Shown: piece by piece, positions 28,412 through 53,012 of the stretch
Layout: every line of letters starts with the position of its first letter
How positions within the stretch are numbered: the first letter of the stretch is position 1
Origin: a candidate division FCPU426 bacterium
Lineage (GTDB): Bacteria; Oederibacteriota; Muellerivitia; Muellerivitales; Muellerivitaceae
Assembly (NCBI GenBank): GCA_027452205.1
Contig: DAIDGV010000001.1
Location: forward strand, 1-64,000
Direction of reading: 5' to 3'
DNA length: 64,000 bases
The notes under the pieces: generated by a model
Database searches by the model: none
The model's input: only the letters and a program-made list of their open reading frames with translations
What the model was told of the DNA's origin: nothing
Made by a program: the position numbers and the translations under genes

Positions 28412-28415
28412 ACAC

Positions 28416-28524
28416 AATTAAGAATTATGAATTAAAAATTAAGAATTATTCGTCTTTTAAAAAATAAACAATTTTCATCAAAATTGCTCATCAATTCATA
28501 ATTCAAAATTATTAATTCTTAATT
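28416..28524. repeat. AT-rich inverted-repeat unit, non-coding copy A
   Basis: Both ends read inward as AATTAAGAATTA (28416..28427 and, on the other strand, 28524..28513). The interior is composed of AATTATGAATT-like words with a central CAATTTT/AAAATTG palindrome. The right end provides the TAA stop of rsmA (28519..28521). Related units lie at 35445..35905 and 52909..53012. Confidence 0.75.
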
Positions 28525-29355
28525 GCCGTTATCAAACGCCTGGGCCAACTCCATTAACTTTGCCAAGCCTAACTCTTCTCCCCGGATCTGGGGATCGATA
28601 CCGGTCTTTTGAAGGGCCGCGTTCACTTCTTCGGTCGGTTTGCCCAAGAACTTGAGCGAATTGGTGATCACCTTCCGGCGACTTTGAAAGATGGCCCGGC
28701 TGATGGCGAAAAGGCGTTTCTCGACGGCCCCGGACAGGGGCAATTCCCTTTTCAGGTCCAGTACCACGAAGGCCGAAGCCACCTTGGGGGCCGGCCGAAA
28801 ACAGCGGGCCGGTACATCCACTAGTTTTTTCACGTCACAGTAATAATTGGTACAGACCGTCAGGGCGCCATAGCTCTTACTGCCCGGCTTGGCCACCAAG
28901 CGGTCCGCCACTTCCTTTTGGATCATTAAATAGACCCGTCGGACGATCGGTTGATACTGGGTCAAAAGGCGGATAATGAGCGGCGTGGTCAGGTAATAGG
29001 GAATATTCCCCGCCACCGTGATCAACCCGGGTGCCGGCGGGGCCAGGGGAGCTATGTCCAATTTCATGATGTCGGCTTTAATAAGTCCAAAGCCAGGGGT
29101 CTTGGCAAAACGTCTTTCCAGCATGGCGTGAAGTTTGTGATCCGGTTCGACCACCGTTAAAAGCCGGCCCTTTTTGACCAATCTTTCGGTCAAAGCCCCA
29201 TACCCGCCGCCCACTTCCAACAACACATCCCCTTCGGGGCACTCGATGGCCTTTTCGATGTTATCGACGATCTTATTGTCGGTCAGGAAGTTTTGCCCCA
29301 TGGATTTACGGGGGCGATAGGAGAATTCTTCAAAAAGAGCGGAGATGGATTCCAT
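28519..29355 (-). CDS. rsmA: 16S rRNA dimethyladenosine transferase
   Basis: Dimethylates A1518 and A1519 (E. coli numbering) of 16S rRNA; also called KsgA. The N-terminal RPRKSMGQNFLTD, SAM motif LEVGGGYGALTERL and catalytic NIPYYLTTP are present. From the ATG at 29355 it has 278 residues, normal for the family; the open frame upstream overlaps a terminator and is rejected. No clear Shine-Dalgarno is visible. The last codons, GGC AAT TAA, run into the AT-rich repeat at 28416..28524, which supplies the stop codon. Confidence 0.95.
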   Translation of the reverse strand: MESISALFEEFSYRPRKSMGQNFLTDNKIVDNIEKAIECPEGDVLLEVGGGYGALTERLVKKGRLLTVVEPDHKLHAMLERRFAKTPGFGLIKADIMKLDIAPLAPPAPGLITVAGNIPYYLTTPLIIRLLTQYQPIVRRVYLMIQKEVADRLVAKPGSKSYGALTVCTNYYCDVKKLVDVPARCFRPAPKVASAFVVLDLKRELPLSGAVEKRLFAISRAIFQSRRKVITNSLKFLGKPTEEVNAALQKTGIDPQIRGEELGLAKLMELAQAFDNGN

Positions 29356-34453: not shown

Positions 34454-35431
34454 TTAAACCAACTTATCCGCCAGTTTCAAGGCGGCGATCATGCTTTGGG
34501 GGCGGGCGATACCCTTCCCCGCGATGTCAAAAGCCGTACCATGGTCCGGCGAAGTTCTGACATAGGGCAGCCCCAAGGTCATGTTCACGCCGTTCTCGAA
34601 GGCCACAAGCTTAAAAGGGATCAGTCCCTGGTCGTGGTTCATGCAAAGGACCGCGTCGTACATGCCCGCCGCCGCCCAGTAATAAAGCGTATCCGGGGGA
34701 TGGGGGCCGGACACTTTCCAGCCCTTGCGTTGGAATTTGGCGATGACCGGCTTTAGAATTTTGATCTCTTCTTTACCAAAAGCGCCGTTCTCCCCGGCGT
34801 GAGGATTGACCCCCGCTACCGCGATGCGGGGCTGCTTGATGCCGAACCATTGGCGAAGGCTTTTCTGGGTCAGTTCTAATTTTTCAGCGACCAGGGTAGG
34901 CGTGACATAACGAACGGAGTCTTTAAGCGCCACATGGATGGATTGAAGAACGATCTTGTAAGGTCCACCCACCATCATCATGGCAAAGGTCTTGGTCTTA
35001 GATAAATGAGCTAAAAGTTCTGTGTGACCCGGGAAAACGCAACCCGCTTTATGGATGGCTTCTTTGTTGATCGGGGCCGTCACGATGGCTTTCACCTTGC
35101 CCGCCAAAGCCAATTTGGAAGCTTCGTAGATATAGTCCACCGCCGCGGTGCCGCAAGCCGCCGATACTTTTCCCATCTCCACTTTCTCAGCGCCGCCCAG
35201 GTCCAACACACCCACCTGGCCTTTCAAGAATCGGGCATCTTCCGCCTTTTGGATCTGGGTCAGGGATATCTTGATGCGGAACAGCTTGGCCATTTGGACG
35301 AGGTAATCAAAATCCCCCACAATCACATAACGAGAAGCCTCAGCCTTCGCAAAGGAAGCCAAAGCTTTTAAGGTCACTTCCCCGCCGACCCCGGCGGGAT
35401 CGCCCATCGTTACCGCGATCAACTTTCCCAT
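34454..35431 (-). CDS. pdxA: 4-hydroxythreonine-4-phosphate dehydrogenase
   Basis: Vitamin B6 (deoxyxylulose-5-phosphate-dependent) pathway enzyme that oxidises 4-phospho-hydroxy-L-threonine; its partner PdxJ is encoded at 53852..54592. MGDPAGVGGEV, the metal-site FPGHTE, VNPHAGENG and MNHDQGLIPFK are family motifs. The ATG at 35431 (GAGG five bases upstream) gives 325 residues. The ribosome site sits about 6 bases from the end of the AT-rich unit at 35445..35905, so any transcript from upstream must run through that unit. Confidence 0.96.
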   Translation of the reverse strand: MGKLIAVTMGDPAGVGGEVTLKALASFAKAEASRYVIVGDFDYLVQMAKLFRIKISLTQIQKAEDARFLKGQVGVLDLGGAEKVEMGKVSAACGTAAVDYIYEASKLALAGKVKAIVTAPINKEAIHKAGCVFPGHTELLAHLSKTKTFAMMMVGGPYKIVLQSIHVALKDSVRYVTPTLVAEKLELTQKSLRQWFGIKQPRIAVAGVNPHAGENGAFGKEEIKILKPVIAKFQRKGWKVSGPHPPDTLYYWAAAGMYDAVLCMNHDQGLIPFKLVAFENGVNMTLGLPYVRTSPDHGTAFDIAGKGIARPQSMIAALKLADKLV

Positions 35432-35444
35432 AAACACCTCACGG

Positions 35445-35905
35445 AAATTAAGAATTTTGAATTAAGAATGATGAATTACGGTACAAAAGCTTCGCTTTTT
35501 TCTTTTGTCGTTTTAACGATCGAACCCATGATACGAATGATCTCATCGACATCACGAACATATTCAGAATAGTTGCCTTTAACGATCTGCGACTCTTGAA
35601 GCAACTTCAACCAATAGCGGGTCTCACGGCTTTCTTTGAGCGCGATGGTCATCTTGGAGACAAAATCCTTTCGGCTTTGACCCGCCAAGGCTTCCTCAAC
35701 ATTGGCCCCAATGCTCGTCCCACTCCTCAACATCTGCCTTGAAAGCACATATTCGGACGACTGTTGAAGCGTTTTCGAAAGATTTATGACCTTAATATCG
35801 AACTGAAAGGTCTTTTCTTGAATGACGTTTTTCTTCATTTTTGAAGCCCTATTTCCGGGACGGAAATTTCCATAATTATTAATTCATCACTCTTAATTCT
35901 TAATT
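35445..35905. mobile_element. AT-rich inverted-repeat unit enclosing a four-helix-bundle gene, copy B
   Basis: The left end begins AATTAAGAATTTTGAATTAA and the right end, read inward, TAATTAAGAATTAAGAGTGA. Together they flank only the gene at 35476..35838. The unit fills the whole space between the phoH2 stop (35912) and the pdxA ribosome site. No transposase and no clear target duplication are visible. Calling it mobile is inference from the matching ends and the non-coding relatives at 28416..28524 and 52909..53012. Confidence 0.5.
35476..35838 (-). CDS. Four-helix-bundle protein (IVP / S23-like family)
   Basis: A 120-residue all-helical protein. KTFQFDIKVINLSKTLQ, the RSGTSIGANVEEALAGQSRKD motif and the ALKESRETRYWLKLL helix match the four-helix-bundle family that includes proteins encoded by 23S rRNA intervening sequences and the Avd accessory proteins of diversity-generating retroelements. 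No reverse transcriptase or variable repeat is present here. Its TAA stop (35476..35478) is supplied by the AT-rich repeat arm. ATG at 35838 has AGGG eight bases upstream. The function of stand-alone members is unclear. Confidence 0.9.
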   Translation of the reverse strand: MKKNVIQEKTFQFDIKVINLSKTLQQSSEYVLSRQMLRSGTSIGANVEEALAGQSRKDFVSKMTIALKESRETRYWLKLLQESQIVKGNYSEYVRDVDEIIRIMGSIVKTTKEKSEAFVP

Positions 35906-35911
35906 AGGTTT

Positions 35912-37237
35912 TCAGAGCACTTTCGCCGCTAGCGCCGCCAACGGCGAGCGCTCGCTCTTCGACAGGGTGATATGCCCGAACAGCGCGTTGCCTTTGAACC
36001 GCTCCGCCAAGTAAACGATACCGTTGGAAGAAGCATCCAAATAGGGGTTATCGATCTGGTAGGGGTCGCCGGTCAGGATGATCTTGGTGCCCACCCCGGC
36101 CCGTGAAACGATGGTCTTGATCTCATGGGGCGTCAGGTTCTGGGCCTCATCCACGATCATGTATTGCTTGGGGATGGAACGCCCACGGATATAGGTAAGG
36201 GCTTCCATTTCCAGTTTGTGGGAATCCAACAGGTATTGGACCTTGTCATCCACCTCTTCGGTGTCGTTCTGCAAGTGCCCCTTATCCAGGATGAATTCCA
36301 GGTTATCGAAAATGGGCTGCATCCAGTTCATGAGCTTTTCATCTTTAGTACCCGGCAAATAGCCGATGTCCTTGCCCAATGGCACGATGGGCCGGGAAAC
36401 CAGCACCCGGCGGTATTTCTTTTCGTCCAGGGTCTTGAGCAACCCAGCCGCCAGGGCCAAAAGGGTCTTCCCCGTACCCGCCGACCCGACCAGCGTCACC
36501 ATAGGGATACGGTCGTTCAAAAGAAGGTTCAGGGCGAAGTGTTGCTCACGATTGAGAGCCTTGATGCCCCAGGACTCCGGGTCTTTGAACCAAAGGGGCT
36601 GGGCTTGTTTGGCGTCGTCTTTATAGATCGCCAGGGCGCTTTTGCCTTCGTGGATATTGCTCTTTAAAAGCAAGAACTCGTTCTCATAAAGCTTTTGATC
36701 GGCGTAATCGGCCAGCGAAAGCTTGCCGGTCTTATAGAACTCGTCGATGCCCGCGTCGGGCACTTGCACCGTCGTCCAGCCCGAATAAAGCTCGTCGATA
36801 TTGACCTTATTGGTCTCGTAATCTTCCGAAGGCACGCCCAAGGCGTCCGCCTTGATGCGGACGTTGATGTCCTTCGTGATGAACCGGACATTTTCGCCCT
36901 TTTGTTTCAAGGTCAGGGCGATACCGATGATGTTGTTGTCGATCTTCATGTGCGAAAGGGCCGCCGGCAATTGGCCGGTCGGGGTGCTGATATCCACCCG
37001 CAGATTACCGCCATTAGGCAGGGCTACCCCCTCTTGCAGGTTGCCTTTCTTGCGCAAGGCGTCCAGGAACCGGGCCACTTCCCGAGCGTTACGGCCGCGC
37101 TCATCCTCGTATTTTTTGAACGTGTCCAACTCCTCAATGACCCCCAGGGGAATGACAACCTTGTTATCTTCAAAGGTCTCCAGGGCCCGGGGATTGTGGA
37201 TAAGGACGTTGGTATCGAGAACGAAGGTTTTGATCAT
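35912..37237 (-). CDS. PhoH2-type PIN-PhoH RNA helicase/nuclease
   Basis: A 441-residue fusion. The N-terminal PIN-type nuclease domain (about 1-140) has the acidic residues of FVLDTNVLIHNP and FITKDINVRIKADALG. The C-terminal PhoH ATPase domain has Walker A GSAGTGKT (about 248-255) and Walker B YMIVDEAQN. Family members unwind and cut RNA. ATG at 37237 has GGGAGG nine bases upstream and overlaps the stop of the M50-like gene (ATGA). This is the large fused form, distinct from the PhoH usually next to ybeY. Confidence 0.92.
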   Translation of the reverse strand: MIKTFVLDTNVLIHNPRALETFEDNKVVIPLGVIEELDTFKKYEDERGRNAREVARFLDALRKKGNLQEGVALPNGGNLRVDISTPTGQLPAALSHMKIDNNIIGIALTLKQKGENVRFITKDINVRIKADALGVPSEDYETNKVNIDELYSGWTTVQVPDAGIDEFYKTGKLSLADYADQKLYENEFLLLKSNIHEGKSALAIYKDDAKQAQPLWFKDPESWGIKALNREQHFALNLLLNDRIPMVTLVGSAGTGKTLLALAAGLLKTLDEKKYRRVLVSRPIVPLGKDIGYLPGTKDEKLMNWMQPIFDNLEFILDKGHLQNDTEEVDDKVQYLLDSHKLEMEALTYIRGRSIPKQYMIVDEAQNLTPHEIKTIVSRAGVGTKIILTGDPYQIDNPYLDASSNGIVYLAERFKGNALFGHITLSKSERSPLAALAAKVL

Positions 37238-37968
37238 GAAGCGCGACCTCCCAGATGGGAAAGATAGGGTGATGCCCAGGACCAAAAGCGGAACCCCAGG
37301 TGAGCCACCCATTGCGACGTTTCAGAAAAAGCGACCGACCACGGCAATACAGTAGGCCATATCAAACAAATGAGCATCAGGAGAACGATTATATTTCCCG
37401 TCAAAATGAAGATCACTGAGAAGATCACTCCACCTTCCTGAAGGTCCGGCTGGTGGTGAGACAGCGAATAGAGGGTCAGGGCGATATGGAAAGCGTAGGT
37501 GAACCCGATCAAGCCGAGGAAGTAGATTCTATGCTGGGGCGCGGCCACTAGATAGAAGAGGACCGTAACGGCGGTGTAAAAAGGGAAAACATAAGGGGCG
37601 AGGCTGATGAGGACGTGGGACTTGTTGACCACCGTCGTGCCGCCCTTGTCGGATGCCTCTAAAGAAGAAACCTTGCCGCCCATCATCACCGCCGCCAAGG
37701 CATGGGTCAGTTCGTGGGCCAGAACGTGGCTGAAGATGGGCTTATAGAGCAGGAAGTGGATCAGCAGATAGACCGCGAAACCGCCGAAAAAGACGCCGGA
37801 TTCGACCGAAGCCCAAGGAAGAAGGGGTAGGGTTTGCCAAAGCACACAGGCGACGGCCGAGCCGAGCCAGATAAGAAGGATGCCGATGATGATCTTAAGA
37901 AAAAATCCGAGGATCGAATTTTTTAGGGCCAAAGGGCTTATGTCCAAGAGCAGGAATAGAACCAACAA
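37234..37968 (-). CDS. Integral-membrane metalloprotease, M50-like
   Basis: A 244-residue membrane protein with about six hydrophobic segments. FSHVLAHELTHALAAVMMGG carries an HExxH zinc site (about residues 84-88) inside a membrane segment, as in site-2-type proteases. A second-ligand motif is not obvious, and there is no PDZ domain; CPBP-type or other HExxH membrane families remain possible. The frame begins with a TTG at 37968 without a good ribosome site, so the start is uncertain. It overlaps phoH2 by four bases. Confidence 0.65.
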   Translation of the reverse strand: MLVLFLLLDISPLALKNSILGFFLKIIIGILLIWLGSAVACVLWQTLPLLPWASVESGVFFGGFAVYLLIHFLLYKPIFSHVLAHELTHALAAVMMGGKVSSLEASDKGGTTVVNKSHVLISLAPYVFPFYTAVTVLFYLVAAPQHRIYFLGLIGFTYAFHIALTLYSLSHHQPDLQEGGVIFSVIFILTGNIIVLLMLICLIWPTVLPWSVAFSETSQWVAHLGFRFWSWASPYLSHLGGRAS

Positions 37969-52908: not shown

Positions 52909-53012
52909 AATTCAGAATGATGAATTAAAAATTATGAATTTCAGTTAATTTTCGATGTCAAAACATCGAAAATTTTCAATCATTCAAAATTCAAAATTAA
53001 TAATTCTTAATT
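52909..53012. repeat. AT-rich inverted-repeat unit, non-coding copy C
   Basis: The right end reads inward as AATTAAGAATTA (53012..53001) and provides the recX stop (53007..53009). The left end is a diverged match (TTCAGAATGATGAATT). The centre is a palindrome, AATTTTCGATG/CATCGAAAATT. On the minus strand it contains TTGACA (52961..52956) and CATAAT (52936..52931) 19 bases apart, a possible but poorly spaced promoter for alaS. Confidence 0.72.

Follow-up and report, generated by a model that had tools for sequence, protein, structure and literature searches.

Anatomy of the unit between phoH2 and pdxA

The window analyzed here is a stretch of 64,000 nucleotides from a candidate division FCPU426 bacterium. 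It includes a unit (35446-35905) consisting of one IVP/S23 gene placed between two inverted 32-nt arms. The features of the locus are the following:

34454-35437, minus strand: pdxA, downstream neighbor (ORF; junction compared with relatives)
35446-35477, plus strand: five-box arm on the 3′ side of the IVP gene, AATTAAG AATTTTG AATTAAG AATGATG AATT
35476-35838, minus strand: IVP/S23/four-helix-bundle gene, 120 aa (profiles, AF2 model, PDB match)
35485-35499, no strand: small hairpin AAAAGCTTCGCTTTT directly inward of the 3′ arm; it overlaps the final IVP codons (from sequence)
35852-35871, no strand: small palindromes TTTCCGggaCGGAAA and GGAAATTTCC just inside the 5′ arm (from sequence)
35874-35905, minus strand: inverted five-box arm on the 5′ side of the IVP gene, one box degenerate
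35912-37312, minus strand: phoH2-type PIN-PhoH gene, upstream neighbor, start codon uncertain

The start of pdxA (35437) and the stop of phoH2 (35912) delimit a gap that is filled by the unit, in agreement with the original prediction. That prediction also described inverted AT-rich ends flanking a single 120-residue IVP/S23-like gene, and both the repeat count and the protein profiles bear this out: with at most one mismatch, AATTAAGAATT occurs 16 times in the window versus 1.4 times expected (0 of 100 shuffles reached this count). The repeat ends are real, but they are not the simple 11-mers first described; each arm is built of five AATT-type boxes at a spacing of 7 nt. The IVP stop codon is located inside the arm at 35446-35477. 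The palindrome region at 35852-35871 is paired in the predicted fold, and a hairpin similar to AAAAGCTTCGCTTTT, AAAAGC..GCTTTT, is found at the same place in the units of the related genomes G001 and G002.

The IVP ORF matches both PF05635 (E 5.1e-24, 85 bits versus a curated cut-off of 33.8) and TIGR02436 (E 2.6e-29, 101.6 bits versus a cut-off of 24). Its AF2 model consists of four helices (pLDDT 94); the best PDB match is 2rld (BT_0352; TM 0.83), with 2gsc (Xcc0516) also close, whereas Avd chains of diversity-generating retroelements match the model less well. Both 2rld and 2gsc contain five identical chains, and PMC10053308, citing Lin 2006, describes Xcc0516 as an assembly of five four-helix bundles. 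By homology to these two structures, the window protein may be a pentamer.

Five-box arrays elsewhere in the genome

Arrays of the own genome were gathered by pattern search combined with inspection of the regions. The box consensus is AATTNNG, with variable spacers. A genome-wide pattern search yielded 52 strict triple-box matches, while the reversed box pattern gave 0 matches in the same kind of search. With loci selected through a three-box pattern and one mismatch permitted in inner boxes, 46 arrays were counted: five boxes are present in 42 of them, four in 3 and three in 1, and none of the 46 exceeds five. Five boxes are again the commonest number in ten related genomes, where a single array lies above five (six boxes); loci were chosen there by a four-box pattern, so that shorter arrays are under-sampled.

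Two non-coding units with the same ends as the IVP unit had been predicted in the window, and both are confirmed:

28415-28525, no strand: a short hairpin enclosed by arms 28416-28447 and 28493-28524; the neighboring genes are convergent
52909-53012, no strand: a perfect hairpin enclosed by arms 52909-52940 and about 52981-53012, in the recX/alaS gap

Tabulated genome-wide, one repeat-bounded unit encloses an IVP gene and all the other units found are non-coding; nearly all arrays are non-coding because this genome has just one IVP gene. The non-coding arrays comprise two-armed hairpins as well as arrays that stand alone, many of the latter lying within another palindrome. About ten single five-box AATT arrays are situated inside the palindrome GCCACAGATGCAGGGGATA...TATCCCCTGAATCCCCTGTATCTGTGGC (e.g., G000:C24:350835, 510342 and 633570, and C8:15027 and 25727; L104, L107, L110, L012 and L013), an arrangement suggestive of one repeat family having inserted into the loop of a second.

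The predicted RNA fold of these elements is better than that of shuffled sequences, both for the IVP unit (z -3.5) and for the short units (z -3.9). This agrees with the main rival to the reading that we prefer, namely that the unit acts at the RNA level as an mRNA analog of the intervening sequence (IVS) of 23S rRNA, a known element with the same layout (PMC4990558). Arms would pair in the transcript, RNase III would cut, IVP binding would protect or regulate the transcript, and uptake of DNA followed by recombination would spread the unit. The better-than-shuffle folding can, however, come from complementary AATT boxes alone. In addition, the arms are not matched in register: when 14 two-armed units were compared in the own genome, spacer agreement was 0.53 between the same positions of the two arms versus 0.57 between other positions. 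As agreement is no better in register, what is kept is the boxes and not an in-register stem, and this comparison does not support such a stem as the conserved feature. The location of one non-coding unit between convergent genes (28415-28525) also speaks against an RNA-level element, which we consider rather unlikely overall.

Presence and absence of the unit at phoH2-pdxA in related genomes

Comparison of the phoH2-pdxA junction with relatives, as had been proposed, revealed sites that lack the unit, though no close empty site for the window's own copy. Four family members from three genera carry the unit (G000, the own genome; G001; G002; and G007, whose copy is truncated at a contig end). 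G004 and G006 lack it, and G006 is congeneric with G002 and G007. In G005 there is no IVP gene, and a stretch resembling the 3′ hairpin of the unit is kept. A repeat-less IVP gene at the same locus was sought as well; five-box arms are present at all four filled loci, where sequence is available. With four carriers and two non-carriers, one of them congeneric with two carriers, the unit is either old or repeatedly lost, and the pattern could be that of an old insertion with loss. In G001 and G002 (L117 and L116) the start of the PdxA reading frame lies within the unit (MKSEAFLPKFKIKNLKFRIRQPPLIAVTMGDPAG in G002); judging from the reading frames, the arm may be translated there as a new PdxA N-terminus.

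Concerning mobility of the window's own unit, one family locus bears on it and the unit looks old. Because it is present in three genera, recent hopping at phoH2-pdxA is unsupported. The idea that the gene forms part of a mobile unit is partly supported, by the relatives in which the unit is absent from this site and by the plasmid insertions described below.

Another rival reading is an ordinary autoregulated gene: a resident nucleic-acid-binding IVP, with the arrays as its operators, inherited vertically and occasionally lost. In chromosomal pairs the IVP gene is under purifying selection, with a low dN/dS of about 0.05-0.2, and some positions are long conserved (gene names by eye from translations): MCP|IVP|cheA-like in Nostoc relatives, IVP before moaC in Polaribacter and Tenacibaculum, and thiolase|IVP|acyl-CoA dehydrogenase in Flavobacterium. 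Operators would hardly account for arrays on both sides of the gene plus dozens of non-coding copies, nor for the disruption of dcm and HNH-like genes by insertion, and we regard autoregulation as improbable.

Filled and empty sites in Nostoc plasmids

In plasmid pNsp_c and two relatives, a unit with AATTCGC arms lies inside a cytosine methyltransferase gene (dcm), where it replaced 333 nt present in other plasmids. In pC052_A, about 188 nt gave way to a unit, among them part of a gene that looks HNH-like by eye; these nucleotides are kept in six other plasmids, with flanks up to 95% identical. The ancestral state is the intact gene, as found in several plasmids, and in both the methyltransferase and the HNH-like cases the left junction is a native AATT. 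In pTCL26-01_B, the cas2-cas1 gap holds a unit in antisense orientation, which replaces about 60 nt found in a related plasmid; this orientation is a further point against the RNA-level reading. The IVP unit between cas2 and cas1 (L235, 2489-2845) belongs to a type III-B CRISPR locus of a Nostoc plasmid.

The original prediction had proposed looking for a target duplication and had suggested that the short units may be MITE-like derivatives. No clear duplication is seen at the three plasmid pairs of filled and empty sites; target DNA is replaced instead, although the replaced DNA could be a later deletion. The own genome carries one full IS200/IS605-type Y1 transposase (G000:C16:144-503) and two small fragments. 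Classical MITEs with a parent element and a transposase acting in trans would fit the short dispersed units with the same ends, and this full TnpA might be named as a source. The replaced target, the turnover of arm sequence between orthologous elements and the lack of any transposase linked to the units make that version very unlikely, and classical mobilization of the short units is not upheld. Mobilization of the short units in trans, as such, would be consistent with the observations.

Box arrays beside IVP genes across phyla

The genome set comprised 39 genomes including the own genome, with IVP genes in 28. We examined 67 IVP loci from the host phylum and 78 window-type loci obtained by scanning named genomes; the scan covers Bacteroidota, Cyanobacteria, Chloroflexi, Elusimicrobia, CPR, Verrucomicrobia, Planctomycetes and Proteobacteria. 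Of the 145 IVP genes, 104 are accompanied by flanking arrays whose periodicity exceeds the 99% shuffle level, where 1% is expected (50/67 host-phylum and 54/78 window-type loci). All array-bearing window-type loci, 54 in number, show a period of 7. At the same loci, arrays are found at 11 of 125 distal flanks versus 68 of 134 flanks beside IVP genes. The number of periods per IVP arm has its mode at about 4.5. Cyanobacterial arrays are looser (3 to about 24 units), and five boxes as a strict universal rule are therefore rejected.

The association has exceptions on either side. One IVP clade (PRGNYY type) is mostly without arrays, and arrays also occur in genomes without IVP of the window type (G004 and G013). 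As to whether the repeats are independent of IVP genes, they do extend genome-wide in the presence of a single IVP gene and persist in G004, but most IVP genes bear arrays. Side observations include a helicase|IVP|methyltransferase segment of pAfl69 (L253, 27263-33647) with about a dozen heptamer arrays clustered in and near it, some within coding sequences, and an IVP unit with several array types between drmD and pglX-like defense genes in Planktothrix plasmids (L238). Gene orientation is in line with the RNA-level reading: 64 of 82 array-bearing IVP genes have both neighbors on their own strand. Array-less IVP genes are, however, just as codirectional (30/33).

The unit sequence varies by element (GTTGCCG, AGTTCGC, GGTTACA, AAGTTTT, GATGCTTG, GTTTATAAG and others) but is common to the two arms of one element. 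Arms match their own partner better than the arms of other elements in 40 of 67 cases above the 95% level, and in 28 of 78 when the same test is applied to the named genomes. At orthologous-looking loci, judged by eye from the flanks, both arms can differ together (e.g., L044 versus L054; L031, L033 and L058).

When box-unit length (6 to 10 nt) was placed on the IVP tree, which has about 120 columns and is weakly resolved, 8 changes were counted. Random label shuffles require 21.5 on average (minimum 17), and shuffles within genomes 17.6 (minimum 13). This shows that unit length tracks the IVP protein clade rather than the host genome; genome G010 has units of four lengths (7, 8, 9 and 10 nt), every one paired with an IVP of its own. 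The match could reflect mere co-inheritance of arms and gene; unit length, however, is retained even as the sequences of the units turn over. IVPs of Cyanobacteria and Chloroflexi fall together in one clade, and such cross-phylum clades indicate horizontal movement, contrary to what is expected from a vertically inherited, autoregulated gene.

The same data bear on whether the arrays are simple repeats grown by slippage and unrelated to the IVP gene. Heptamer repeats are over-represented in many bacteria (PMC4692102). Slippage is contradicted by the fixed number of boxes despite diverged spacers, by the link of unit length to IVP clade and by the enrichment of arrays beside IVP genes, and we give it hardly any credence.

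A proposed mechanism of insertion

Taking these data together, we propose that the window unit belongs to a widespread family of minimal insertion units, "five-box IVP units", whose protein would be a pentamer that binds box arrays; we hold this to have about an even chance of being correct. As the solved relatives are pentamers, one box per subunit is proposed: an IVP pentamer would bind a five-box array on single-stranded DNA or RNA. The loaded arm might then anneal to a box-like site, most simply at a replication fork, and the target stretch between two annealing points would be replaced. IVP would guide the insertion and host replication or repair would carry it out; since no nuclease is encoded, joining would be left to host enzymes. 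Arms-only units might be passengers or relics recognized by the same protein.

We put forward more tentatively, as possible but well short of probable, that this is a categorically new mobile unit free of nuclease and polymerase, in which a five-fold ring reads a five-box array with clade-matched spacing and annealing insertion replaces the target. If this is true, the IVP/S23 family gains a function and many unexplained heptamer repeats of bacteria are accounted for. Anatomy, box number and unit length tie IVP to heptamer repeats and lead to a simple prediction: five subunits, five boxes.

Comparison with known systems

The closest known kind of element is the 23S rRNA intervening sequence. 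IVS with an S23/IVP ORF, from Leptospira, Coxiella and others, have long been suspected to be mobile or selfish (PMC4990558), and IVP was called functionally uncharacterized in 2024 (PMC11270868). IVS have a similarly short size, terminal inverted repeats and a single IVP ORF in the loop (PMC4990558). Unlike them, five-box units lie between or inside protein-coding genes and not in rRNA, the window unit between pdxA and phoH2, and they have arms that are arrays of about five boxes as well as dozens of arms-only copies.

Avd (4DWL, 8UB7) belongs to the same fold family and is likewise a nucleic-acid partner protein, but the window IVP is only about 18-20% identical to it in fold alignments. A reverse transcriptase acting in trans was discarded, since PF00078 has no match in the own genome, which is 99.4% complete. 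Like MITEs and REP/RAYT elements, five-box units are short, dispersed and palindromic; they differ in that the target is replaced with no clear duplication and in that the protein is neither a nuclease nor a transposase. The proposed logic of one repeat per subunit is shared with TRAP and other ring proteins, whose targets are short RNA sites in repeated series; in five-box units the boxes are five and of 7-10 nt, the protein is encoded inside the element and its binding is putative.

Heptanucleotide repeats resemble the five-box units in being period-7 arrays in intergenic DNA. Examples are the Xanthomonas GGGAATC and Nostoc GGGGA(C/T)T heptamers; those of Xanthomonas have mostly four units and often form inverted pairs, and heptamer over-representation in bacteria is given no known cause (PMC4692102). 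Two other papers describe P6b hairpins of the Nostoc trnL intron made of degenerate heptamers (PMC3488679) and a Beggiatoaceae repeat, TAACTGA (PMC4679880). In the open-access papers searched we found no link between heptamer or five-box repeats and IVP genes, and AATT box strings gave chance matches only. The solved IVP pentamer Xcc0516 comes from the same Xanthomonas species as the GGGAATC repeat.
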